From a virus, in the IMG/VR virus record IMGVR_UViG_3300042402_005186, positions 1-57,852 of that record: DNA of 57,852 bases; one strand, given 5' to 3'. Position 1 is the first letter of the stretch. Every line of letters begins with the position of its first letter. Shown in pieces: positions 10,401 to 51,190 of the stretch. The notes under the pieces are model-generated. The model saw only the letters and a list, made by a program, of their open reading frames with translations, made no database searches and was not told the origin of the DNA. A program made the position numbers and the translations under genes.

Positions 10401-11354
10401 TTAGCCTATGAAAATTTCGCTTGGCATGGAAAGAGTGCTCTTCGCATCTTCTTCCAACTCTTTCATTTCTTCTAATGCTTCATTCATGATTCTGGGGCCA
10501 TCTAGTGTAACTCCACCAGGCATTTGAATACCAGCAAATTTACTTAGATTTGTTCCCCACTGGTATTTAATTTTTGCTGTAGCATATGCTTTTAGAAAAC
10601 GATCATTCCAAACATCGGGATATCCTGTGATTGTCATAGAATTACCTGATGAAGAAGATGCATATGAGGAACTTACATTTAAGGAAGTATCTGATTCAAT
10701 GTTAACAACCCTTTTTGTTTCCCCTGCGATTACGATTTCTTCTCCGATAGAGATTTCTTTAGTAAAACTTGTTCCGCTTCCGGTTACTGTATTTGAAGAA
10801 TTGCTTATTGTCGCAGTGCCCGTCATCGTTGTATTATCAGGAGAAATGTATCGATAACATTCGATGATAATCCAATCACCTTCTTTTAGATCCCTAGTCC
10901 AGTCGATATCTAAGAATAACTTATCCATCTTTCGATTAAATCTTACCTGCGGAGTACCAGAGAATAAAAGATTCAATGTTCGAATATGTTGCATTGTGAT
11001 TTCATATGACACATAAGATACGGAAGTAAAGTCATATAAATCATGCAATCTAAGTTGATATCTCAAATCGAACATATTCACTGATGAATTTGATTGATCG
11101 AACGGAAGAATTCCCGTAATAAACTGAATTGCATCTGGGCAATTAATCCACTGCCTGTCTATATCAATTTGTTTTATTTGGTGCTTCAGGTACATTTGTT
11201 GCGTACCGTCATAGTGATAATCGTTGAAAAAAGCTAGGGCATCATCTATTCTATCTTCAACTTGATCGTCATCCACGTTAATTTGTACAACGGGATGCCC
11301 TAGGCGTCTTAGGCAGTATTCTTTAAATTGTGTTCTTGTTGATATTTTTGCCAT
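10401..11354 (-). CDS. gp13: Neck protein gp13
   Basis: The 317-residue product is close to T4 gp13 (309). It begins MAKISTRTQFKEYCLRRLG and shows the family segments 'VQINVDDDQVEDRIDDALAF', 'YWQW'-type aromatic stretches and a C-terminal 'GVTLDGPRIMNEALEEMKEL'. Around residues 175-241 there is a beta module with the pattern GSGTSFTKEISIG and SDTSLNV that is also found in the gp7-like protein. It is the first gene of the neck unit behind a perfect late octamer. Confidence 0.94.
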   Translation of the reverse strand: MAKISTRTQFKEYCLRRLGHPVVQINVDDDQVEDRIDDALAFFNDYHYDGTQQMYLKHQIKQIDIDRQWINCPDAIQFITGILPFDQSNSSVNMFDLRYQLRLHDLYDFTSVSYVSYEITMQHIRTLNLLFSGTPQVRFNRKMDKLFLDIDWTRDLKEGDWIIIECYRYISPDNTTMTGTATISNSSNTVTGSGTSFTKEISIGEEIVIAGETKRVVNIESDTSLNVSSSYASSSSGNSMTITGYPDVWNDRFLKAYATAKIKYQWGTNLSKFAGIQMPGGVTLDGPRIMNEALEEMKELEEDAKSTLSMPSEIFIG

Positions 11355-11377: not shown

Positions 11378-11385
11378 TATTTATA
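11378..11385 (-). promoter_or_regulatory. T4-type late promoter upstream of gp13
   Basis: Minus strand TATAAATA, an exact T4 late consensus, 23 nt before the gp13 start. It overlaps the end of the glycosyltransferase-methyltransferase gene and would separate the neck/terminase unit from the modification genes. Confidence 0.75.
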
Positions 11386-12640
11386 TCTTCAGAGGACCAG
11401 GCAATCTCTGCATACCATCTTTAACTGCTACAAGCCATGCATCAGTGACACAAACATTGAGATTTTTGAGCCAATCATTCGGAAACCAAGTCATTTTTCT
11501 GTATTCCTGAAAACGAATCGATTTATTTTCTATAAATTGTGCGAGATATGCATCCGTATAATATAAGAAACTGTTTTCGTTCCAATAACTTACATGGGTG
11601 GGATCTTGAAACGCTCCTCTCCCATCAGTGCTTGGAACCTGAATAAATGCCCATCCGCCTGGGGCTAAAACCCGATGAATTTCTTCCATGATTTTTGTCT
11701 TATCATGAAGATGTTCGAGTATATGGCTTGCATTTATGACGCCTACAGTATTATCGGGTAGTGGAATTCCATTATTTAAATCGTGAATAATATCTGCGTC
11801 TTTTCTCAAATCTACAGAAATATAGTTCGGATACGGATTTAAACCACCACCCAAATCAACACAAAGTAAATTTTTATCTTTTGCATCTTTTTCTGCTAAT
11901 TTTTGAGCATATTGATTAAACAATTCAACAGTCTTAATTTGAATATCTTGATTTCTTTGTAACCATGTATTGTTACCAGTTATTCTATAAATGTACAAAA
12001 CTTTAGGAATGCGTTTCATCTTAGAGGCAAGATACGTTCGAATCATCAATTCATGATCATCACATATTGAAAGTTCTGGATTATGTCCACCAACTGATTG
12101 GTATACCGATTTTCTCCAACTTCTAACATGATCAGGTGCATACCAAATATAACCGAGAGAATGAGAGGATGGTTCAAAACTGTTCATCGCAATCAACCAT
12201 TTGTCTTTCCATTCAAATAATCGGTGAGTCCATCCAAAGTTACCATCGAAAGGAACAAACTTATCTTCCATATGCAAAACCGCATTGTCGCTGTATACAA
12301 ATCCAATAGACTCATCTTTATATGCTTGCGACAATTCTTCAAGACAATCAGGCGTGAGTAAATCGTCGTGGTCTACTTCAACTAAAATATCTCCTGATCC
12401 GGCATTAAATGCTTTATTTTTAATTGCACCGACATTCGTTTCACCTGAACCATCATAAAAAATACGAACTTTTTCATCTTTTAAAATATCAGGAGGAACT
12501 AAATCTTCAGTGAACTTGTTGTTCAAATATAGTATCCATTCCCAATTTGTATACGATTGATTCTTGATCGTATCGTAAAGCTCAAGTAAAAAAGGAATAT
12601 TACCAGGGTCATGTTCTGGCGTAATAATGCTGAATTTCAT
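11381..12640 (-). CDS. Glycosyltransferase (GT2)-methyltransferase fusion
   Basis: I chose the ATG at 12640, giving 419 residues; the longer reading frame to 12655 would need a TTG start. The N-terminal half is a GT-A fold family 2 transferase: KFSIITPEHDPGN, then 'NAGSGDILVEVDHDDLLTPD', whose DHDD motif (Asp90-Asp93) is the nucleotide-sugar/metal site. From about residue 257 a class I SAM methyltransferase follows, with DLGGG (motif I), SHILEHLHD and RVLAPGGW. The enzyme may add a sugar and methylate it or a nearby group. It is the last gene of a run beginning with collagen-like fibre genes, 7 nt after the previous stop, so virion fibre glycosylation is the likeliest role. Host surface or DNA targets cannot be excluded. 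Confidence 0.85.
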   Translation of the reverse strand: MKFSIITPEHDPGNIPFLLELYDTIKNQSYTNWEWILYLNNKFTEDLVPPDILKDEKVRIFYDGSGETNVGAIKNKAFNAGSGDILVEVDHDDLLTPDCLEELSQAYKDESIGFVYSDNAVLHMEDKFVPFDGNFGWTHRLFEWKDKWLIAMNSFEPSSHSLGYIWYAPDHVRSWRKSVYQSVGGHNPELSICDDHELMIRTYLASKMKRIPKVLYIYRITGNNTWLQRNQDIQIKTVELFNQYAQKLAEKDAKDKNLLCVDLGGGLNPYPNYISVDLRKDADIIHDLNNGIPLPDNTVGVINASHILEHLHDKTKIMEEIHRVLAPGGWAFIQVPSTDGRGAFQDPTHVSYWNENSFLYYTDAYLAQFIENKSIRFQEYRKMTWFPNDWLKNLNVCVTDAWLVAVKDGMQRLPGPLKI

Positions 12641-12647
12641 AATATAC

Positions 12648-14357
12648 TCACTCAAAAAAGAATAAATGTGTCAGTCTTCCGTCTTGATCATTTTGACCAA
12701 AATATGGACCCGCAGAATGTATTGCTCTTGCATCCATAATGAGAAGTCTATTGTATATATTTCCTATATTATCGACGATATCAAACTTAGTGCTATCGTA
12801 AAAACCGGAAGAGAATGACATATCAATACCTTCTTGACTCGAATGTCTAAGACCTGTAATCTTAGAACGGTGCGACCTTGTTCCGCTTTCTAATGGAGCG
12901 TTTGGTGTTAAATAAATCATTCCCGCCCATCTTTGTTGATCATAGTGATAAACTTGTGGATCATTTGAAGTTGTTATTTGAAAACAACCATTGTACCCAT
13001 CATCCCAAAGGGTAATCGTTTGACCTATAATATTTTCAAATGCTCTCTTGATGCTATGAGGTCTATAAGTTTCTTTCGATCTTAACCCTTTATACCAACG
13101 GATATCGGAAGAAAATTCTACAGAAAGTGCATAGTCACGAATACGATCAGGCTCATCATAAAAATTATCAACAACAAAAACTTTTCTATCTAAACTTTTC
13201 TTGATTGAAAAAAGAGGCAACCCTCTCGGTTTAGAATTCTCATACTTACGTAAAGCTCTTTCGTGTATTTCTTGAATTCTTCCTGTTGGACTATCCCAAT
13301 ACATCGAAGTATCAATAAAATTTACATATTTCGGAAAAGCATTCGTTCTTTCTGGTAGCATCATTCTCGAAGTTTGATTAAACATATTTTCATAATCACC
13401 TAGCTTTTCATATAAATTTGCAAGTGCCAATATATGATCATTTCTTCCTGGAGCGAATTTTTCAGAAAGATTATAAGACGTAATCGCCGCTGAATAATTA
13501 TTCAACATTTCATAACATTCACCGCAATATATCATTGATAGATATGAAGTTTCATCAATCGGAACTTCTGTTTTATTTTTATAAAGAAAATTTACATATT
13601 CTTCAAAATAGTAAATAGCTCTTCTTGCATATTCTTTTTGATGAGATAAACCCAAAGGCATTTCTTTACATTCTCTAGCGTCGTAATAACTTTTGCCTAT
13701 GTACCAAAAATGATATAGATTGGATAACATAGTGCGATCAGAGATCATATCTTTTTCTAGAATCAAAGAATGTTTTATGAATTTATATGGATCGCTCCAA
13801 CTTTCTCCTGTATTAAAACCTGTTTGCCTGAAGCTTGGTGGCAAGTCGAATCTTTGGAAGTCTTTTCCTATTTCAGGTAAATCACAGTAAACTGTCTCGT
13901 GACAAGGATCATGATTGAATCTCCACGGCATCTTTGCATTGTACATCCATGCTCTATGATAAATTGAAGTTCCTTGGACAGCAGGGATATGAAAACTGTG
14001 GATTGTTTTATCGTCTAAAAGTGACCAATCAAAATCGTCATCGACTTCTAAAATCTCGTCGCAGTCCATTTTCAAAATCCAATCGCACCCATGGTCTGCG
14101 TTTTGTTGACAATACTGGATTAGATGATCGCGGTTCCAACCGAAACCTTTCCACCCCTCTTCACAAACATATATTTCTCCAGAGAGTTGATTGTCTAATA
14201 AAAATTTTCTAGCAATCTCATCTGTACCATCAGTAGATCCGTTATCTTGCATAACATAATAATCGACATAAGGTAAACACGAATTCAACATTCTAAGAAT
14301 GCTCTTAGATTCATTCTTGAACATTGTAATCATGACGATCTTAGACTTCTTATTCAT
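12648..14357 (-). CDS. Glycosyltransferase fused to 2-oxoglutarate oxygenase-like domain
   Basis: This 569-residue protein combines three parts. Residues 5-240 form a GT2-type glycosyltransferase: IVMITMFKNES, 'MQDNGSTDGTDEIA' and a metal-site motif KMDCDE (Asp98, Asp100). Residues 240-340 are helical and TPR-like. Residues 390-569 look like an Fe(II)/2-oxoglutarate oxygenase domain: FVVDNFYDEPDRIRDYA, then His471-x-Asp473 in VYHYDQQRW, and His547 with Arg561 fourteen residues later. The arrangement H-x-D...H...R fits iron and 2-oxoglutarate binding. A single chain carrying hydroxylase and glycosyltransferase recalls bifunctional collagen-lysine enzymes, though the order and families differ. 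Its ATG overlaps the upstream oxygenase stop (ATGA). Confidence 0.8.
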   Translation of the reverse strand: MNKKSKIVMITMFKNESKSILRMLNSCLPYVDYYVMQDNGSTDGTDEIARKFLLDNQLSGEIYVCEEGWKGFGWNRDHLIQYCQQNADHGCDWILKMDCDEILEVDDDFDWSLLDDKTIHSFHIPAVQGTSIYHRAWMYNAKMPWRFNHDPCHETVYCDLPEIGKDFQRFDLPPSFRQTGFNTGESWSDPYKFIKHSLILEKDMISDRTMLSNLYHFWYIGKSYYDARECKEMPLGLSHQKEYARRAIYYFEEYVNFLYKNKTEVPIDETSYLSMIYCGECYEMLNNYSAAITSYNLSEKFAPGRNDHILALANLYEKLGDYENMFNQTSRMMLPERTNAFPKYVNFIDTSMYWDSPTGRIQEIHERALRKYENSKPRGLPLFSIKKSLDRKVFVVDNFYDEPDRIRDYALSVEFSSDIRWYKGLRSKETYRPHSIKRAFENIIGQTITLWDDGYNGCFQITTSNDPQVYHYDQQRWAGMIYLTPNAPLESGTRSHRSKITGLRHSSQEGIDMSFSSGFYDSTKFDIVDNIGNIYNRLLIMDARAIHSAGPYFGQNDQDGRLTHLFFFE

Positions 14358-15064
14358 AATGTTCTTTCTTGTATTAATTTCAAAATTTCTGGATCATTTT
14401 TTTGTTTCTCTGTTGGTGAATATAATGCTCTTTTTCTTTTATTCGTATTTTCGTTCGAAGAAACCAGATAATACATTGCGATACTTTTCCTATAAACATT
14501 TTCTGGACAATCAATTGGATTTGAAAACCCATGCCAAGAATTGTGTGTTGTATCGAAAAGCAACAAACGATTAAATTTATTTTCAATAGTTTTTACTAAT
14601 TCTTTAGGTGAATTATTTTCTTGATCATGGGACCAAAATTCTAAATTGCCTCCCCACTCGGGTTTCCATTCCGGTGTTAGATAATATATTAAGTTAAACT
14701 TTCTTTCCATATCCAATTTCGGATGTAGCGAATAATCTAAATGAACATTCAGTCTACCTTCATTGCCTTGGATATGCCAACCCGCACCATGCAGACCTGC
14801 ATCCGGAGTTAGCTCTTCACAGTTAGTCAAACCGCGAAGAAAATTTACAAACTGTGGAGATAAAATGTGTTGAAAAAATTGATATGTTGTTTTTGGAAAG
14901 TAATACCAATTGTTCAGAGCCTTCTTTTTTTCGAGTGGATTATCATAAACAAACCAGTGCTCCGAATTGTAATCAATAAATTCGTTCGATAGTTCTTCTG
15001 CTAAATGATGCGGTAAAAAATTGTCTATAATACAATGCGGAAAAGGATCATTATAAAATTCCAT
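14354..15064 (-). CDS. Fe(II)/2-oxoglutarate-dependent oxygenase
   Basis: I place the start at 15064 (236 residues) because it has the good site GGAGATAAC before the ATG and lies one base after the previous stop. The longer frame to 15118 would overlap that gene by 53 nt. The protein begins MEFYNDPFPHCIIDNFLP, the usual N-terminus of Tpa1/2OG-FeII oxygenases. Metal ligands are visible as His108-x-Asp110 in NVHLDYSLHP and His178 in SWHGF; Arg192 is the likely 2-oxoglutarate contact. GGNLEFW lies between. It probably hydroxylates a protein side chain; given the operon, the collagen-like fibres are the natural candidates, but the substrate is inferred. Confidence 0.85.
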   Translation of the reverse strand: MEFYNDPFPHCIIDNFLPHHLAEELSNEFIDYNSEHWFVYDNPLEKKKALNNWYYFPKTTYQFFQHILSPQFVNFLRGLTNCEELTPDAGLHGAGWHIQGNEGRLNVHLDYSLHPKLDMERKFNLIYYLTPEWKPEWGGNLEFWSHDQENNSPKELVKTIENKFNRLLLFDTTHNSWHGFSNPIDCPENVYRKSIAMYYLVSSNENTNKRKRALYSPTEKQKNDPEILKLIQERTL

Positions 15065-15065
15065 G

Positions 15066-15638
15066 TTATCTCCATTTCGGACCTTCAAACCAAGCAGCAA
15101 TACTATATCTCGTTCCACGAGTCACTGGATTTGCCCTATGTCTGAATAGAGATGGAAAATAGATGAATGATCCTTGTTCTCGAACTTCTTTATCAAGTTG
15201 AGTACCTGTATCGGTAAGTTCTAAATCACCACCAACATAATCATTTGGATCTGACAATTGAATAACGCAGGAAAGTTTTCTGTGGTACACTGGATCATTA
15301 TTTAACCAAAATACATCATGATGTTCTTTATATTCACCTTTATAGCTCTCATCATATTCAGCGAATTGTATGAAGTCTAATTTAGTAATATGAAGACCGA
15401 AGAAGTCACGATTTGCTTCGAGAGCAGTTTTCCATAGAGCATCGAAGATATATTGATATCTCCAATCTCCCGAATTCATAAATCTAATTTTACTTCTTCG
15501 TGTGCTGTAATTTACGCCTTCACCATTACCAAGACCTACAATTCCATCTTGAACTGGTAATACTTGAACATCTTGTATGATTTTTTCGCAGGTTTCTTTA
15601 CTGAAGTATGATTTAAAATAACACCATTCACCTTTCAT
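15066..15638 (-). CDS. Prolyl 4-hydroxylase-like (PKHD family) oxygenase
   Basis: The 190-residue product has the full prolyl-hydroxylase / PKHD layout. The HxD motif is His106-x-Asp108 (KEHHDVFW), followed by CVIQLSDPNDYVGGDLEL, the distal His167 in FPSLFRHRANPV, and Arg177 ten residues later in the TRGTRYSIAAW segment for 2-oxoglutarate. This arrangement is shared by collagen P4H catalytic domains and by bacterial YbiX-like PKHD hydroxylases. The gene starts 9 nt after the stop of a collagen-like fibre gene, with ribosome binding site AAAGG. I infer it hydroxylates prolines of the fibre Gly-X-Y repeats. Modification of another protein is possible. Confidence 0.88.
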   Translation of the reverse strand: MKGEWCYFKSYFSKETCEKIIQDVQVLPVQDGIVGLGNGEGVNYSTRRSKIRFMNSGDWRYQYIFDALWKTALEANRDFFGLHITKLDFIQFAEYDESYKGEYKEHHDVFWLNNDPVYHRKLSCVIQLSDPNDYVGGDLELTDTGTQLDKEVREQGSFIYFPSLFRHRANPVTRGTRYSIAAWFEGPKWR

Positions 15639-15647
15639 ATTATACCT

Positions 15648-17819
15648 TTACAATTTTGTTTTTATATACTCGATTTGATCCTTTTGTTCTTTGAGGGCTT
15701 GTATGAGTAAAGGAACAACTTTTTCGTACATAATCGTTAAATATTTTTCACCGCTAATGCTGTTTCCATATTTATCACTATCAAACGGAGCAGGTACTAT
15801 TACTTCTGGCAACACTTTTTGAACTTCTTGAGCAATAAAACCTACCTGTTTGATGCCTTGTTTGGTATAGCCTAACTCTTTTGCGAGTTCATTTTCTTCA
15901 TAATAAACCCCTCTAATTTTTTCAAGCTTCTCTAAAGATTTATCTACAGGCCCCAAAATGTCTTTCAGTCTTCTATCCGAATAAAATGAAGTAATTTCTT
16001 GTGTTGCTCTGACTGTTCCTTGTGGTCCTAAAGCAGATCTTATACCAAGAACATCGACTCGGTTTGGATCAACTCCTCTAGGACCTTGCGCTCCGGTTAA
16101 ACCCGTGGGGCCTGCTGCGCCAGCACGACCCATCGGACCACCTAAACCCTGAGCACCTTGTGGGCCGGTAACTCCTGGGGGTCCCGGAGCTCCCATCGCC
16201 CCCTGAACACCTGAAGGTCCTACTGGCCCAGGAACACCTATTGCTCCTTGACGACCTTGGCGACCTTGATTTCCTTGAGGTCCTTGAACACCTTGAGGTC
16301 CTTGAGCACCTGATACACCTTGGCGACCTTGAACGCCAGTTGCACCTTGAGGCCCTTGAACCCCTGTAGACCCTTGAGCGCCTTGTGCGCCTTGAAATCC
16401 TGTTGGTCCTTGAATTCCTTGGAATCCTGTTGGTCCTTGAATTCCTTGAGCACCAGGCGAACCTTGAACACCTTGACGGCCTTGAAACCCCGAAGGTCCT
16501 TGGGCGCCTTGAGCACCAGGAACACCAGTAGCACCAATTACCCCTTGAGCTCCAGGTGCTCCGGTAGGGCCTTGAAATCCTGATGGTCCTTGAGCACCCT
16601 GAACCCCCTGAGCACCAGTATTACCTTGAGCACCAGCGACTCCTGGAACGCCAGCAGCACCTGGAGGACCAGCAGCGCCTTGAGGACCTACCGCTCCCTG
16701 TGCACCTTGGGGACCTTGAGCGCCCGTTAATCCTTGAGCACCGGCAACACCAGGAACACCAGTAGCTCCTGGAGATCCAGTTGCTCCTGAAGGTCCTGTT
16801 AAACCTTGAGCTCCTTGAAATCCTGCTGCTCCATTATTTCCTTGAGCACCGGCAACACCAGGAACACCAGTAGCTCCAGTTGAGCCTGTGGCACCTTGTA
16901 CTCCTTGTGCGCCTTGAGGTCCTTGAGCACCAATCGCACCTTGAGGTCCTTGGACACCAGAGACTCCTGGAACTCCAGTAGCTCCAGTTGAGCCTGTGGC
17001 ACCTTGTACTCCTTGTGCGCCTTGAGGTCCCTGTGCGCCTTGAACACCTTGAGGGCCTTGTGCTCCAACGACCCCACTTACTCCCTGCGGTCCAGTTGAA
17101 CCCAAAGGTCCCTGAAAGCCTGAAGGTCCCTGAACCCCTTGAGCTCCTTGTATTCCTTGGGGGCCAACAGAGCCAGTTACACCAACAATTCCTTGTGGCC
17201 CGGAATTACCTGAAGGTCCTTGAAACCCTTGCGGCCCAGGTGATCCTGCCGCACCCGTTGCTCCAGGAGAACCTTGGGCTCCAGTCGTTCCTATTACACC
17301 AGAAACCCCTGTAGAGCCTGTTAATCCTTGAAATCCTGCTGGTCCTGTAGGACCCTGTGCGCCTTGAGGTCCTTGAGCACCTTGAACGCCTTGTAGTCCT
17401 TGGAACCCTTGCGGTCCAGTAATTCCTTGAGGTCCTTGTGGTCCTTGAGACCCGACAAGCCCTTGAGGTCCTTGAGCACCTTGCGGGCCTTGTGCACCAG
17501 AAACTCCTTGTGAACCGACAGCACCTTGAGCACCAATAGTACCCGGAGCGCCTGTTGGTCCTTGAGGACCTTGGGCACCTTGAGCACCCTGTGGACCTTG
17601 AGCACCCTGTGGACCTTGAGCGCCTGAAGCTCCCTGTGTGCCTGAAGATCCTTGAGGACCTTGAGCCCCGGCAATACCAGGCACTCCAGAAACTCCCTGT
17701 GGGCCCTGAGGACCTTTTATATTAAGTGTGTCTCCAATCCAAACACCATTCGCAGCAACGACGCCATAAGTTTCGATTGTAAGTCCGTTTTTAACTACGA
17801 AAGGTTTTGTTGTAGCCAA
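15648..17819 (-). CDS. Collagen-like tail fibre 1 with S74 chaperone domain
   Basis: The 723-residue product uses a TTG start (17819-17817), supported by alignment of its opening residues with the two sister proteins and by an AGAGG site. Residues 1-35 are a short head ([13 protein letters not shown]) probably attaching to the virion. About residues 36-580 are nearly unbroken Gly-X-Y triplets dominated by GPQ and GAQ, with prolines also in the third position (GVP, GAP, GSP, GPP). The C-terminal 112 residues are a peptidase S74 intramolecular chaperone: YSDRRLKD (cleavage Ser near 614 with following Lys) and [15 protein letters not shown]. Such domains trimerise fibres and then cut themselves off. 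Part of the repeat shows 108-bp periodic duplication. Confidence 0.93.
16867..17030 (-). repeat. 108-bp periodic duplication in collagen-like fibre 1
   Basis: A 56-bp segment at 16867-16922 recurs identically at 16975-17030, an offset of exactly 108 bp (36 residues, 12 collagen triplets). It encodes a stretch around [13 protein letters not shown]. The DNA identity beyond what the protein needs suggests recent unequal recombination or slippage. Confidence 0.8.
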
Positions 17820-17821
17820 AA

Positions 17822-20497
17822 TTATTTACCTCTTCTTTCTATTTCTTTTAACAAATCGGCTATCATAACTTGCTGTTCTTTAATTGCTTGTGTAATAACT
17901 GGTATTAATCTCTCGTATTGTACGGCTAAAAAGTCATGACCGGATTTACTATTTCCGTGTTCATTAATATCGAAAGGTGCCCTATCGATAACTTCAGGAA
18001 CAGATGGTTGTATTTGTTGAGCAATCAATCCAACTCTTCGCTTTTGATCCTTCTCATAACCATATTTTTCTGCTAAACGATTTTGCGTAAAGTATATACC
18101 AGTCATGCTTAATATTTTTTCCAAACAATTATCTATAATAGAGATTTTCGTCTTCAATCTTTTATCGGAGAAATTAGAAGTTATCTCTGCTGTAGCTCGA
18201 ATAGTACCTTGAGGGCCTGCGGCCGTGTTTAATCCAAGTGCATTTAAACTGGCACTAGAAGTTGTTCCTTGTATCCCTTGTGGTCCAATAAATCCTTGTC
18301 TTCCCGTAGGACCAGGAGGACCTTGAACGCCTTGAGCGCCCGTTGGTCCTCTAGGTCCCTGAGCACCAGCGAGCCCTTGTGCGCCTTGTGCGCCTTGTGG
18401 ACCATTATTACCCGGAAAACCAAAAACGCTACCTTGGGGTCCTTGAGCCCCTTGAGCGCCTTGTGCGCCTTGTGCGCCTTGAGCTCCAGCAATATTTTGT
18501 GAACCCGCAGATCCCTGTACACCCTGTGCACCTTGAACACCTTGAGGTCCTCTTGCAGGAAAACTTGAAAAATTATTAAAAGCAACATCTATAAAACCAG
18601 AAGTGCCAGTATAATAAAAAGATGAATCTATATAAAAAGTTCTATCAGGTCCATCTAACATTTCTCGCTGAAGAGATCCATTTATCCAATACCTAACATA
18701 AACGTTATCATATGTTATAGAAAATTGTGTAGTGGAATCATATCCTGGAAATTCTCCAACATATGTTCCATTTTCATATATTTGAGTGCCTCCTCCATAA
18801 TAAGGATACCAAGCATAGTCGATGGTGGCATAACCTGCATTTGTTGCAGGATCACTATTCAAACCGCACATTACATAATTGAGATTATCATTTCTTCTAA
18901 AAGAAACGAAAGCACCACTCGTAAATCCAGTTGACGAATAAAACTGACCGTCCCAATCTCCATTAGTTCCCGTGTTTTTATAAAAATAACTTGCATCCGA
19001 TGAGGATTGAATGACACCACCAGAAACTACTGCGGTAAAGTTGCTTGATGAACCTGCATATCCTTTTCTGGCAAATCCTTGTGGACCTTGAGCACCAGCA
19101 ACTCCCTGTGGACCTTGAGCACCAGCAACTCCTTGGGCACCGACAACTCCCGGTGCCCCTTGCGGGCCTTGTGGTCCTATATTATTCGAAGGTCCTTGAG
19201 GTCCCTGAACGCCTTGAGCCCCTTGACGACCTTGAAATCCAGCGGGCCCTTGTGCTCCGACAACACCTTGTGCTCCAGAAATACCAGCAACACCTTGTGC
19301 TCCAGGAGAACCTGTCGCGCCTTGAACACCTTGGCGACCTTGAAAACCAGCAACAGCACTTGTTGGTCCAGTGATTCCTTGTACACCTACAGGCCCCTGA
19401 AAGCCAGAAGGTCCTTGTGCTCCAGTCGCACCTTGAGCCCCTTGACGACCTTGAGCACCAACAAGCCCCTGAACTCCTGCAACTCCCTGAGGGCCTATAG
19501 TTCCTTGAGGTCCTTGAGCACCGGGAGCACCTGTTGCACCCTGAACACCTTGACGTCCCTGAAATCCGGTGGGACCTTGTGCACCAACTACCCCTTGTGC
19601 GCCAACAGGAGCAGTACCCTGAGCGCCGGGAATCCCTGTTGCACCCTGAACACCTTGACGGCCTTGAAAACCAGTGGGACCTTGAACACCAACTGCTCCT
19701 TGTGCTCCGACCGGTGCAGTACCTTGAACTCCTTGAGCCCCAACTGGTCCCTGAACTCCCTGAACACCTTGAAATCCAGTGGGGCCTTGAGAACCTTGTG
19801 GTCCTTGGAATCCAGCAGGAGCATTACCTTGAGCGCCTTGTCTACCAGAAGCGCCTTGTATTCCTTGAACTCCTTGAAATCCTTGCGGGCCAGTAGCACC
19901 CTGTGGTCCTTGAAAACCAGAAGGAGAAGATCCTTGGATTCCGGGTGGCCCAAATGGTCCTTGTGATCCTTGAACACCCTGAAACCCCTGCGGACCAGTA
20001 GATCCTTGCGGACCTTGAGCGCCCTGTACGGAAGATCCTTGTGGGCCTGCAAGACCCTGAGCACCTTGTGAACCAGGGGAACCTTGAGCGCCAGGTGCTC
20101 CTGTTGTTCCTTGAGGACCTTGTGCACCTGGATTTCCTTGAGAACCAGCAACTCCTATATCACCGATTTCACCAGAGAACCCAAGAGCTCCTGCGCTACC
20201 AGATTCGCCTTGTGCGCCTTGAGGTCCTTGAATACCAGAAGCTCCTGTTGACCCCTGTGGACCTTGTGCTCCAGGTGATCCTTGTGGGCCTGGTTGTCCA
20301 ATAAATCCGGTGGGTCCCTGGATACCTGGAGCCCCTATATTCCCCTGAGCGCCCTGAGAACCTTGTGCTCCCTGTGCACCTGCGTAAGATGATGGCTGAC
20401 CAACCCATTTTCCTAATGAGTTAATTATGTTATGGGTGCCTGTAGTATTACTGACAGACACTCCATTTTTAACTATAAAATTTCTATCGGTTGCCAT
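17822..20497 (-). CDS. Collagen-like tail fibre 2 with internal globular domain and S74 domain
   Basis: The 891-residue product starts at an ATG, overlapping the stop of fibre 3 by 14 nt. The head [14 protein letters not shown] matches its sisters. Collagen triplets run from about residue 40 to 475. A non-collagen domain of about 170 residues follows (475-650), rich in Tyr, Ser and Gly, with [15 protein letters not shown] typical of a jelly-roll or lectin-like fold. A second collagen segment follows, then the S74 domain from about residue 775 ([17 protein letters not shown]). The first collagen part carries recurring breaks of the Gly-X-Y rhythm ([24 protein letters not shown]). The inserted domain is the best candidate for receptor binding. 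Confidence 0.92.
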
Positions 20498-22697
20498 TCA
20501 ATCTTTCTCTGAGAGCTTCTATTTCTTTTTGTTGTTCTTTGATCGTTTCTACAATAAGTGGTATCAAATATTGGTAATGAACCGTTAAATAATTTTCACC
20601 GCTTCTACTCTGTTCATTCTCATCAATATCAAATGGAGCAAGAGTAACGATTTCAGGTAAAACTTTTTGTACTTCTTGTGCTATTACGCCTATTTGTTTT
20701 TTATAGTCGTGATAACCAAATTTTTCTGCATGAGAATTTTGTTTGTAAAAAATGCCATTCAGTGAATAAAGTTTTTCACCAGCATTCTTTATGTATTCGA
20801 TGTTATCTTTTAATCTGATATCAGAGTAAAATGAGGTTATCGTACTTGTAGCTCTGAGTGTTCCTGTTGGACCTGCGGCAGTATTTACACCTAATGAAGC
20901 AATAGAAACGCTTGGTGTTCCTGGGACTCCGGCTGAAAGATCTCCTGGAGTACCTTGAGCTCCTGTTGGTCCTTGGGCACCTTGAGCTCCCGAAGTACCT
21001 GGAGGACCTTGGGGTCCTGTAACACTTGACGGAGGACCTGTATTTCCTTGAGCCCCAGGCGACCCATTAGCACCAAATGTAAAAGATGAAGGTCCTTGTG
21101 GACCTTGGACTCCTTGAGCACCAGGAACTCCCGGAGCACCAGGAACACCAGTAAAACCCACTCGTCCTTGAAATCCTGATGGGCCTTGTGCCCCAGAAAC
21201 TCCAATTGATCCTTGTGCTCCTTGTCTTCCTGCGGCCGCGGTTGGACCTATGGCTCCGTTTACACTAGTATTGCCTTGAGCACCGGCAATTCCTTGAACA
21301 CCTTGAGCGCCAGCGATTCCTTGAGTGCCTTGAACTCCCTGTCTTCCTTGGATCCCAGAAGGACCAGTTGTACCAAGAACTCCTTGAGGACCTGTTGCGC
21401 CAGTAGGATTAGTTCCTTGTGCTCCCTGAGGTCCTTGAAATCCTGCGGGTCCTTGAACGCCTTGAAAACCTTGTCTTCCTTGTGCGCCTTGAAATCCTGC
21501 AGGACCTTGAACGCCAGCGGGCCCCTGAGCTCCTTGAGGTCCTTGAATTCCAGTCGGACCTTGAATACCCTGTGTTCCCGTAAAACCCACTTGTCCTTGA
21601 AAACCCGAAGGGCCTTGTGCACCAGCAGGACCCTGTGCGCCCTGAGCGCCTGGAGGTCCTTGAACACCTTGAGCACCTGTGACTGAAGATGCTGCACCTT
21701 GAGCACCTTGAAATCCCGCAGGACCTTGTGCACCCGCAGGACCTTGTGCACCCTGTGGACCCTGAGCACCTGCAACTCCTGGTACACCTTGAGCACCTGC
21801 TGTTCCAGTGGGCCCCTGAAATCCCGCAGGACCTTGTGCACCCGCAGGACCTTGTGCACCCTGTGGACCCTGAGCACCTGCAACTCCTGGTACACCTTGA
21901 GCACCTGCTGTTCCAGTGGGCCCCTGAAAACCTTGTGGTCCGAGTGAACCTACTGAACCTTGTGCACCTTGAGGTCCTTGAATACCAGAAGCTCCTGTTG
22001 ACCCCTGTGGACCTTGTTCTCCAGGAATTCCAATCGGTCCTTGAGCGCCTTGAGCACCCGGAGAACCCTGAGCGCCTTGAGGTCCTTGAGCGCCTGATGA
22101 TCCTGTTGTTCCTTGAGGACCTTGCACACCCGATCCTCCTTGAACACCTTGAGCGCCTTGAGGGCCGACTGCACCTTGAGTTCCTTGAGGACCTTGTGCA
22201 CCAGAAGCACCGGATGAACCTTGAGGTCCTTGAGCTCCTGGGGCTCCGGTATCTCCAGTCGTTCCCACCATTCCAGGAACGCCAGTATTTCCAGTTAGTC
22301 CTTGAAACCCTATAGCTCCGTTAGCGCCAACATTACCAGTAAATCCTATTCCACCTTGAAATCCTTGGGGACCTTTTGAACCTTGAGGGCCTTGTGCACC
22401 AACTGCTCCCTGTGCGCCTTGAGGGCCTTGTGCTCCAGAAGCGCCTGGATCTCCACCAACTCCGGGAGCTCCATCAACACCAGAAAAGCCCGGTGTGGTA
22501 CTTGCAGATCCTTGGGGTCCTTGTGCTCCCGGTGTTCCTTGAGCTCCCGGTGAACCAGGAGAACCTGAAGCTCCTGCAAAACCTGCGTCACCTGTTATAT
22601 TATCTGGCGGTCCAACCCATCGACCGTCCGAATCAATGACTGATTCAGTACCGACGTTTATGCCATTTTTTACTACGAAATTTTTATCTGTTGCCAA
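20484..22697 (-). CDS. Collagen-like tail fibre 3 with S74 chaperone domain
   Basis: The 737-residue product begins at a TTG (22697-22695); an in-frame stop lies just upstream, so no longer ATG version exists, and the residues after it ([15 protein letters not shown]) match the ATG-started sister. Residues 38-620 are collagen triplets, mostly GPQ, GAQ, GPA and GPT, with Pro in the third position in GAP, GVP, GSP and GIP. The C-terminus is an S74 domain ([27 protein letters not shown]). A perfect 108-bp tandem duplication lies in the repeat. This is the first of the three collagen genes in transcription order. Confidence 0.93.
21709..21929 (-). repeat. Perfect 108-bp tandem duplication in collagen-like fibre 3
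   Basis: Bases 21709-21816 are repeated without mismatch at 21817-21924, with five more bases of a third copy. The unit encodes 36 residues (12 triplets) including [19 protein letters not shown]. Complete DNA identity including silent positions points to a recent copy-number change. Confidence 0.92.
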
Positions 22698-50733: not shown

Positions 50734-50741
50734 TATTTATA
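50734..50741 (-). promoter_or_regulatory. T4-type late promoter for the gp48 baseplate operon
   Basis: Minus strand TATAAATA, the exact consensus, 24 nt ahead of gp48. Its last base is also the first base of the gp4 ATG on the plus strand, so the two divergent units share about 30 bp. Confidence 0.72.
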
Positions 50742-51190
50742 TGTCATACGGAAAGAATACATACAAAGGGTGGTTTAACCCGCAAAACCCCAAAAAATAC
50801 AACGGAAACCCCGAAAATATCATTTATCGATCCTCTTGGGAATTACGCTGTATGAAGTATTTTGATGATCATCCAGAGATCATTTGGTGGTCATCAGAAG
50901 AGCTGGCTATTCCATATATCTCTCCAGTTGATGGAAAGAGACATAGATACTTTCCAGATTTCATCATCAAAGTAAAACGAAAAGATGATACCGTAATGAC
51001 CTATGTAATCGAGGTCAAACCAGAAGCACAGACAAGAAAACCAGTACAAAGAAAGAAAACTAAGAAGTTTCTACAAGAAGCAGCAACATATGCCATTAAT
51101 CAAATGAAGTGGAAAGCTGCTGATGAATTCTGCCATGAACATGGATGGCAATTCAAGATACTGACTGAGAAGGATATTGGTATCAACTGA
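50741..51190 (+). CDS. gp4: Head completion protein gp4 (PD-(D/E)xK nuclease fold)
   Basis: The 149-residue product equals T4 gp4 (150; also called gp50). It starts MSYGKNTYKGWFNPQNPKKY, and shows Glu34 (SSWEL), Pro72-Asp73 (FPDF) and Glu91-Val-Lys93 (IEVK), the catalytic pattern of PD-(D/E)xK nucleases of TnsA type. In T4 the protein is required to finish packaged heads before tail joining. It is the first gene of the plus-strand unit. I see no clear ribosome binding site before its ATG. Confidence 0.93.
   Translation: MSYGKNTYKGWFNPQNPKKYNGNPENIIYRSSWELRCMKYFDDHPEIIWWSSEELAIPYISPVDGKRHRYFPDFIIKVKRKDDTVMTYVIEVKPEAQTRKPVQRKKTKKFLQEAATYAINQMKWKAADEFCHEHGWQFKILTEKDIGIN

Follow-up and report, generated by a model that had tools for sequence, protein, structure and literature searches.

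A candidate collagen-modification module beside the collagen-like fibre genes of a T4-like phage, supported by comparative genomics

Hydroxylation and glycosylation of collagen are known from animals and mimivirus, and hydroxylation also from a chlorovirus. In human LH3/PLOD3 and COLGALT1 and mimivirus L230 and R699, oxygenase and glycosyltransferase (GT) activities act on collagen, partly in a single chain (PMC5802723, PMC9546862). Bacteria and viruses have been said to be without the needed prolyl hydroxylases (PMC3368898), and in a Baltic virus survey the use of viral prolyl 4-hydroxylases (P4H) "remains cryptic" (PMC9301287). In E. coli O157 prophages, the collagen-like tail fibres, Gly-X-Y proteins with proline mainly in X, were described as unhydroxylated and, as recombinant proteins, unglycosylated, and no enzyme cassette was described (PMC3368898). 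Here we analysed the 57,852 bases of IMG/VR virus record IMGVR_UViG_3300042402_005186 (the whole stretch is called the window), in which three collagen-like fibre genes, likewise with proline mainly in X, are followed by genes for two 2-oxoglutarate (2OG) oxygenases, a GT-oxygenase fusion and a GT-methyltransferase fusion.

Another prokaryotic collagen-like protein, the Bacillus exosporium glycoprotein BclA, carries oligosaccharides on its collagen-like region, but belongs to a different organism and structure, and its pathway is not known to include 2OG hydroxylases. Comparative genomics strongly supports a collagen-modification module in phages. At the level of sequence comparison we established the gene order, the conservation of active sites, the co-occurrence of enzymes with collagen fibres and their joint gain or loss, and the way in which fibre composition depends on the type of enzyme. 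We consider it likely that the window holds a T4-like phage module in which collagen-like fibres are encoded together with enzymes modifying them post-translationally, and the enzyme set very probably decorates the adjoining fibres, much as animals process collagen. An earlier note on this DNA had proposed such a pathway for the phage's own fibres; the protein-modifying enzyme types, the single gene run, the co-occurrence and a composition that tracks enzyme type all speak for it, but its lysyl hydroxylation step does not hold for this phage.

We found no description of phage collagen joined with such modifying enzymes in the open-access literature (subscription literature was not covered). 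Phage and bacterial collagens have so far been taken as unhydroxylated, and the question is directly testable in the cultured isolates S-CAM9, S-PRM1 and S-8S56, in whose genomes Lys-rich collagen is accompanied by the P4H orthologue and an enzyme of the LH3 kind. If our reading is correct, the glycosylated-hydroxylysine pathway of animals and giant viruses would also be present in bacteriophages, many 2OG oxygenases and GTs of aquatic phages would gain a role, a human disease enzyme family would gain a phage branch, and tools for producing modified collagen in bacteria could become available.

The fibre genes and the adjoining enzymes

The window includes a minus-strand T4-like structural module (portal, sheath, terminase, gp16-gp13, fibres and baseplate), and its closest portal matches among named phages were from Synechococcus phages, at no more than 54% identity. 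Each of the three fibres combines collagen repeats (E 5e-86 to 3e-72) with a Peptidase_S74 chaperone; the long Gly-X-Y run, the C-terminal position of the chaperone and the tail/neck gene region are those of phage collagen-like tail fibres. Open reading frames (ORFs) antisense to the collagen genes were dismissed as low-complexity shadows. Fibres and enzymes form a tight minus-strand run of seven genes, as the earlier note had described it, with the same place and the same intergenic gaps: 9 nt between the stop of fibre 3 (15648) and the start of the P4H-like gene (15638), 1 nt between the stop of the latter (15066) and the ATG of the second oxygenase (15064), an ATGA overlap of the second oxygenase and the GT-oxygenase at 14354-14357, and 7 nt between the GT-oxygenase stop (12648) and the GT-methyltransferase ATG (12640).

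Table 1 Features of the window and lysyl-hydroxylase-like fusions of relatives
Feature	Location	Strand	Remarks
Collagen-like fibre 1	20484..22697	-	737 aa; TTG start; S74 chaperone at C-terminus
Collagen-like fibre 2	17822..20497	-	891 aa; interrupted by a non-collagen stretch (residues 477-649, approximately); S74 chaperone at C-terminus
Collagen-like fibre 3	15648..17819	-	723 aa; TTG start; 183 uninterrupted Gly-X-Y triplets; S74 chaperone at C-terminus
P4H-like 2OG-Fe(II) oxygenase	15066..15638	-	190 aa; prolyl-hydroxylase fold (predicted); H106, D108, H167 and R177 invariant
Second 2OG-Fe(II) oxygenase, OGFOD1/prolyl-hydroxylase-like	14354..15064	-	ATG at 15064; longer GTG ORF from 15118
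GT2-TPR-DUF6445 fusion (GT-oxygenase)	12648..14357	-	569 aa; SunS/GmaR-like GT, TPR and C-terminal 2OG-oxygenase-like domain (about residues 391-568)
GT2-methyltransferase fusion	11381..12640	-	ATG at 12640; longer TTG ORF from 12655
gp13-like head-tail adaptor	10401..11354	-	Module boundary; anchor for control searches
GT25 + GT_PLOD + lysyl-hydroxylase-like fusion	L003:12549-14396		S-CAM9, AOV60406.1
Further GT25 + GT_PLOD + lysyl-hydroxylase-like fusions	L004, L005, L405-L419, L426:9926-11695		

Both small oxygenases carry 2OG-FeII_Oxy_3 (1.5e-15 and 5e-16), the GT-oxygenase carries Glycos_transf_2 and DUF6445, and the last enzyme Glycos_transf_2 and Methyltransf_11. The metal and co-substrate residues previously noticed in the three oxygenase domains (HxD...H...R) and the DxD-type sugar-transfer motifs of both GT domains proved invariant across 12-23 relatives. 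These are H126, D128, H196 and R210 in the second oxygenase (counted from the GTG start), DCD 98-100 with H471, D473, H547 and R561 in the GT-oxygenase (13 members for the last four residues), and DHDD 89-92 with D194-H195 in the GT-methyltransferase. Because HxD...H...R is invariant, DUF6445 (PF20043 / phrog_1644; window 12648-13187) is most likely a 2OG oxygenase; its name "minor coat protein" in PHROGs and in RefSeq cyanophage records looks carried over. On the same ground this name, "ferrochelatase" and "DNA endonuclease V" were ruled out for these oxygenase families. The DUF6445 domain and GT2 are separate adjoining genes in the clade of L176 and L207. At L098:9386-11707 and L132:8675-11680, fusions of 774-1002 aa, enlarged forms of the window GT-oxygenase, have an extra methyltransferase in front (methyltransferase-GT2-TPR-DUF6445).

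The P4H-like protein matched profiles of PKHD/PiuC, prolyl 4-hydroxylase and prolyl 3-hydroxylase 1, and the best fold matches of its predicted model (pLDDT 87) were P. putida P4H, PHD2 and the PBCV-1 viral collagen prolyl hydroxylase (vCPH). With these enzymes and PKHD-type PiuC it has in common the prolyl-hydroxylase fold, a double-stranded beta-helix, and the HxD...H...R/K site with its basic 2OG-binding residue, but identity over the fold is about 15-22% and its predicted substrate is X- rather than Y-position proline. The profile match of the second oxygenase was OGFOD1 (1.5e-12), a ribosomal prolyl hydroxylase. The GT-TPR part of the fusion resembled GmaR, the Listeria flagellin glycosyltransferase, by sequence, and the peptide S-glycosyltransferases SunS/ThuS by the fold of its predicted model (pLDDT 73), so that its fold matches carry moderate weight; those to LH3 and AspH had low TM-scores and were little informative. 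As in SunS, ThuS and GmaR, a GT2 domain with DxD is followed by TPR helices; unlike them, the window protein is fused to the DUF6445 oxygenase-like domain, and its acceptor is presumably hydroxylated collagen. Judged by profiles and predicted folds, the P4H-like, OGFOD1-like and GT2-TPR proteins are of prolyl-hydroxylase and peptide/protein glycosyltransferase types.

Co-occurrence of the enzymes with collagen fibres

We searched with the P4H, the GT-oxygenase, the GT-methyltransferase and the second oxygenase, and with gp13 of two clades as control. Each search kept the best 80 loci, which under-samples distant clades, and the approximately 400 loci fell into 243 clusters based on shared 31-mers. 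All four enzymes recurred together in 32 dereplicated clusters, in 31 of them in the order P4H, second oxygenase, GT-oxygenase, GT-methyltransferase, and the gene arrangement is thus far beyond chance. Collagen genes were in view upstream in 21 of these 32 clusters, several others being cut just upstream of P4H. Among the 45 clusters that carry P4H and extend 3 kb or more upstream of it, 36 had collagen upstream of P4H, as the next gene in 21, mostly 2-16 nt away.

The association was also seen in contigs of at least 40 kb, counted as enzyme-bearing with P4H at E<1e-60 or GT-oxygenase/DUF6445 at E<1e-30. Collagen (PF01391) was present in 31 of 31 enzyme-bearing and 4 of 25 enzyme-lacking contigs (G033, G035, G062 and G067; Fisher 9e-12, the contigs not being independent by descent). 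The enzymes and collagen-like fibres thereby go together across phages, a co-occurrence that the earlier note had proposed to look for, and the contrary case it had named, enzymes kept where any collagen-like fibre is absent, was not seen for P4H or GT-oxygenase on contigs of this size. A GT-oxygenase profile scan of genome contigs found no relatives. A gp13 tree was built from 80 dereplicated loci, on which the enzymes were gained or lost at least 22 times. Among well-supported independent pairs differing in enzymes, collagen differed in the same direction in 6.0, in the opposite direction in 0.1 and was alike in 4.9 (averages; median sign-test p 0.03).

Several loci deviate from the common layout. 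In S-CRM01 (L002:15007-16260) and L428 the GT-methyltransferase (54%) stands by itself close to psbA, with the collagen genes of that genome some 50 kb away, which indicates that the cassette can be split. Cassettes without P4H at L194:108-3912 and, in the same layout, L120 are preceded by sugar-nucleotide-type genes (a cytidylyltransferase with mannose-6-phosphate-isomerase cupin, a GT9-like and a kinase-like gene), which perhaps make the donor sugar. On the 144 kb contig L061, a P4H orthologue (59%) neighbours a relative of the GT part that points the other way, and no fibre is adjacent; collagen is matched once and weakly on this contig, whose gene context is different.

Fibre composition and enzyme type

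The window fibres contain 528 Gly-X-Y triplets with 121 X-position prolines (23%), 48 Y-position prolines (9%), 63 Y-position threonines and one lysine. Animal collagen P4H has a substrate rich in Y-position proline, and at this Y-Pro content animal-type Y-position prolyl hydroxylation is disfavoured as the main reaction. In the 65 clusters that had 40 triplets or more, the X-Pro fraction was 0.325 with a P4H orthologue and 0.063 without (p 4e-5), and that of Y-Pro 0.047 and 0 (p 1e-4). The X-Pro difference persisted within the GT-oxygenase type (0.248 versus 0.054, p 4e-5), and GC or genomic proline bias was insufficient to explain it. On the GT-methyltransferase tree, 3.7 of 4 supported independent pairs showed a joint change of P4H and X-Pro above 0.15, but with so few pairs the result is not significant. 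The bias check, this tree and the lysine control below used a P4H table with an ORF-overlap filter, which misses P4H in overlapping ORFs (e.g., L051).

A second enzyme type was found beside a different kind of fibre. In S-CAM9, S-PRM1 and S-8S56, a tail fibre with Lys-rich collagen runs (e.g., GQKGEKG, GPTGPK) is followed by the P4H orthologue (47-49%) and then by a protein annotated as hypothetical, which contains GT25 (1e-28) and GT_PLOD (8e-47) and has a C-terminal 2OG-oxygenase match. This fusion aligns to mimivirus R699 and L230, to COLGALT1 and to LH3, where the alignment takes in the glucosyltransferase as well as the lysyl-hydroxylase domain, and the residues at its expected active sites are invariant in eight diverse members. 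By sequence, the S-CAM9-type fusions are a phage version of LH3/COLGALT, an aligning enzyme encoded beside collagen genes. More GT25-PLOD fusions were detected in uncultured viral contigs and in Roseobacter phage CRP-6. The fibre beside the fusion had 18-53% Y-position lysine in all eight lineages tested, whereas in 62 other clusters the share did not exceed 10% (p 3e-9); CRP-6, a ninth lineage, had 26%, with an X-Pro of 6% and no P4H. That two enzyme types match two different fibre residues is the strongest argument for the enzymes acting on collagen.

The window differs from the LH3/COLGALT systems in both respects. Its GTs belong to the GT2-TPR-DUF6445 and GT2-methyltransferase fusions rather than to GT25 or GT_PLOD, neither of which was found in the window enzymes, and its nearly Lys-free fibres do not offer the Y-position lysine on which PLOD/COLGALT enzymes act. 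Like LH3, the GT2-TPR-DUF6445 protein unites an oxygenase with a glycosyltransferase on a single chain, but its GT part is of the SunS/GmaR GT2-TPR type. We lean, with some reserve, towards a swappable, residue-matched modification code, in which Pro-rich, Lys-free fibres would go with the P4H-like enzyme and the two GT2 fusions, and Lys-rich fibres with a single-chain LH3/COLGALT-like lysyl hydroxylase-galactosyltransferase-glucosyltransferase.

Proposed reactions and alternative explanations

In the window, the P4H-like enzyme, perhaps with help from the OGFOD1-like protein, would hydroxylate fibre proline, most likely in the X position of Gly-Pro-Gln/Thr triplets. Further hydroxylation could come from the OGFOD1-like protein and/or the DUF6445 domain. 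The GT2-TPR-DUF6445 protein would hydroxylate a fibre residue and/or attach the first sugar to the hydroxyl group of hydroxyproline, Thr or Ser, the sugar being transferred by the GT2-TPR domain in the same chain as DUF6445. The GT2-methyltransferase may then add a second sugar, extending the glycan, followed by an O-methyl cap. The likeliest effect would be a stabilised and/or sugar-coated fibre, which might serve stability, resistance to proteases, the choice of receptor or masking. In peptide chemistry, Gly-X-Thr helices can gain stability from X-position hydroxyproline and glycosylated Thr, and fibres rich in GPT, as seen in clusters with P4H but without the fused GT-oxygenase, would be in line with this. 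Covariation gave no support for Thr as the glycan acceptor.

The earlier note's full scheme, in which proline and lysine are hydroxylated and sugars then added as in animals, has in its favour the three oxygenase domains and the pair of GTs next to the collagen genes, and it fits the S-CAM9 relatives. For the window phage we consider it very improbable. No GT_PLOD domain occurs on the contig, lysines number 28 in 11,900 triplets across the GT-oxygenase clusters, and with the single lysine of the window fibres, composition excludes lysyl hydroxylation of their collagen repeats.

It is also conceivable, though we judge it unlikely, that the targets of the GTs and methyltransferase are host surface structures (O-antigen or capsule), remodelled for example to exclude other phages, and that only the oxygenases, or none of the enzymes, act on the fibres; the location would then reflect the clustering of receptor-related genes near fibres. 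The profile matches of the last GT are polysaccharide-type GT2 enzymes, some relatives of the GT-oxygenase have sugar-nucleotide genes around them (L194, S-SSM7), and the S-CRM01 GT-methyltransferase is remote from its fibres. This explanation is opposed by the presence of collagen in every large contig with GT-oxygenase/DUF6445 or P4H, by the protein-GT type of the fusion's GT and its joining to an oxygenase, and by the collagen-specific type of the LH3-like sister enzyme. Less probable again is modification of another virion or host protein (e.g., neck, baseplate or the S74 part), with the collagen link arising from a single exchangeable gene block. Such a block would be in keeping with its place directly before gp13 and with the hypervariable fibre locus of these phages, but X-Pro and Y-Lys of the collagen follow enzyme type, and the block is found with very different gp13/gp14 backbones and in the unrelated CRP-6.

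Besides the polysaccharide-type likeness of the last GT, several observations weigh against modification of the fibres by these enzymes. The second oxygenase occurs alone on two contigs without collagen (G052 and G054), S-SSM7 has a stand-alone DUF6445 among sugar-nucleotide genes while its sole collagen match is below the cut-off, and independent pairs are few. X-Pro is low despite P4H in L083 and L051, and is 0.17-0.24 without P4H in S-CRM01. The clearest exception to the P4H/X-Pro rule is G062 (L431, L310), with an X-Pro of about 0.9 and only a distant P4H match (28% identical); L285, the short fibres of L159/L162, and L147/L151 (0.19) are further ones. Where the GT cassette is present, Y-Thr is reduced rather than raised. 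Moreover, E. coli prophage collagens are rich in X-Pro and in Lys/Arg without such enzymes (PMC3368898), and composition therefore supports the proposed fibre modification but does not prove it.

Two further observations concern other genes of the window. Its gp13 (10401-11354) has 317 aa, as in close relatives, compared with about 257 aa in others, and its residues 177-269 resemble segments from families of tail fibres, which points to a domain inserted there. A TnsA-like endonuclease (PF08722, 9e-24) is encoded on the plus strand at 50741-51190.

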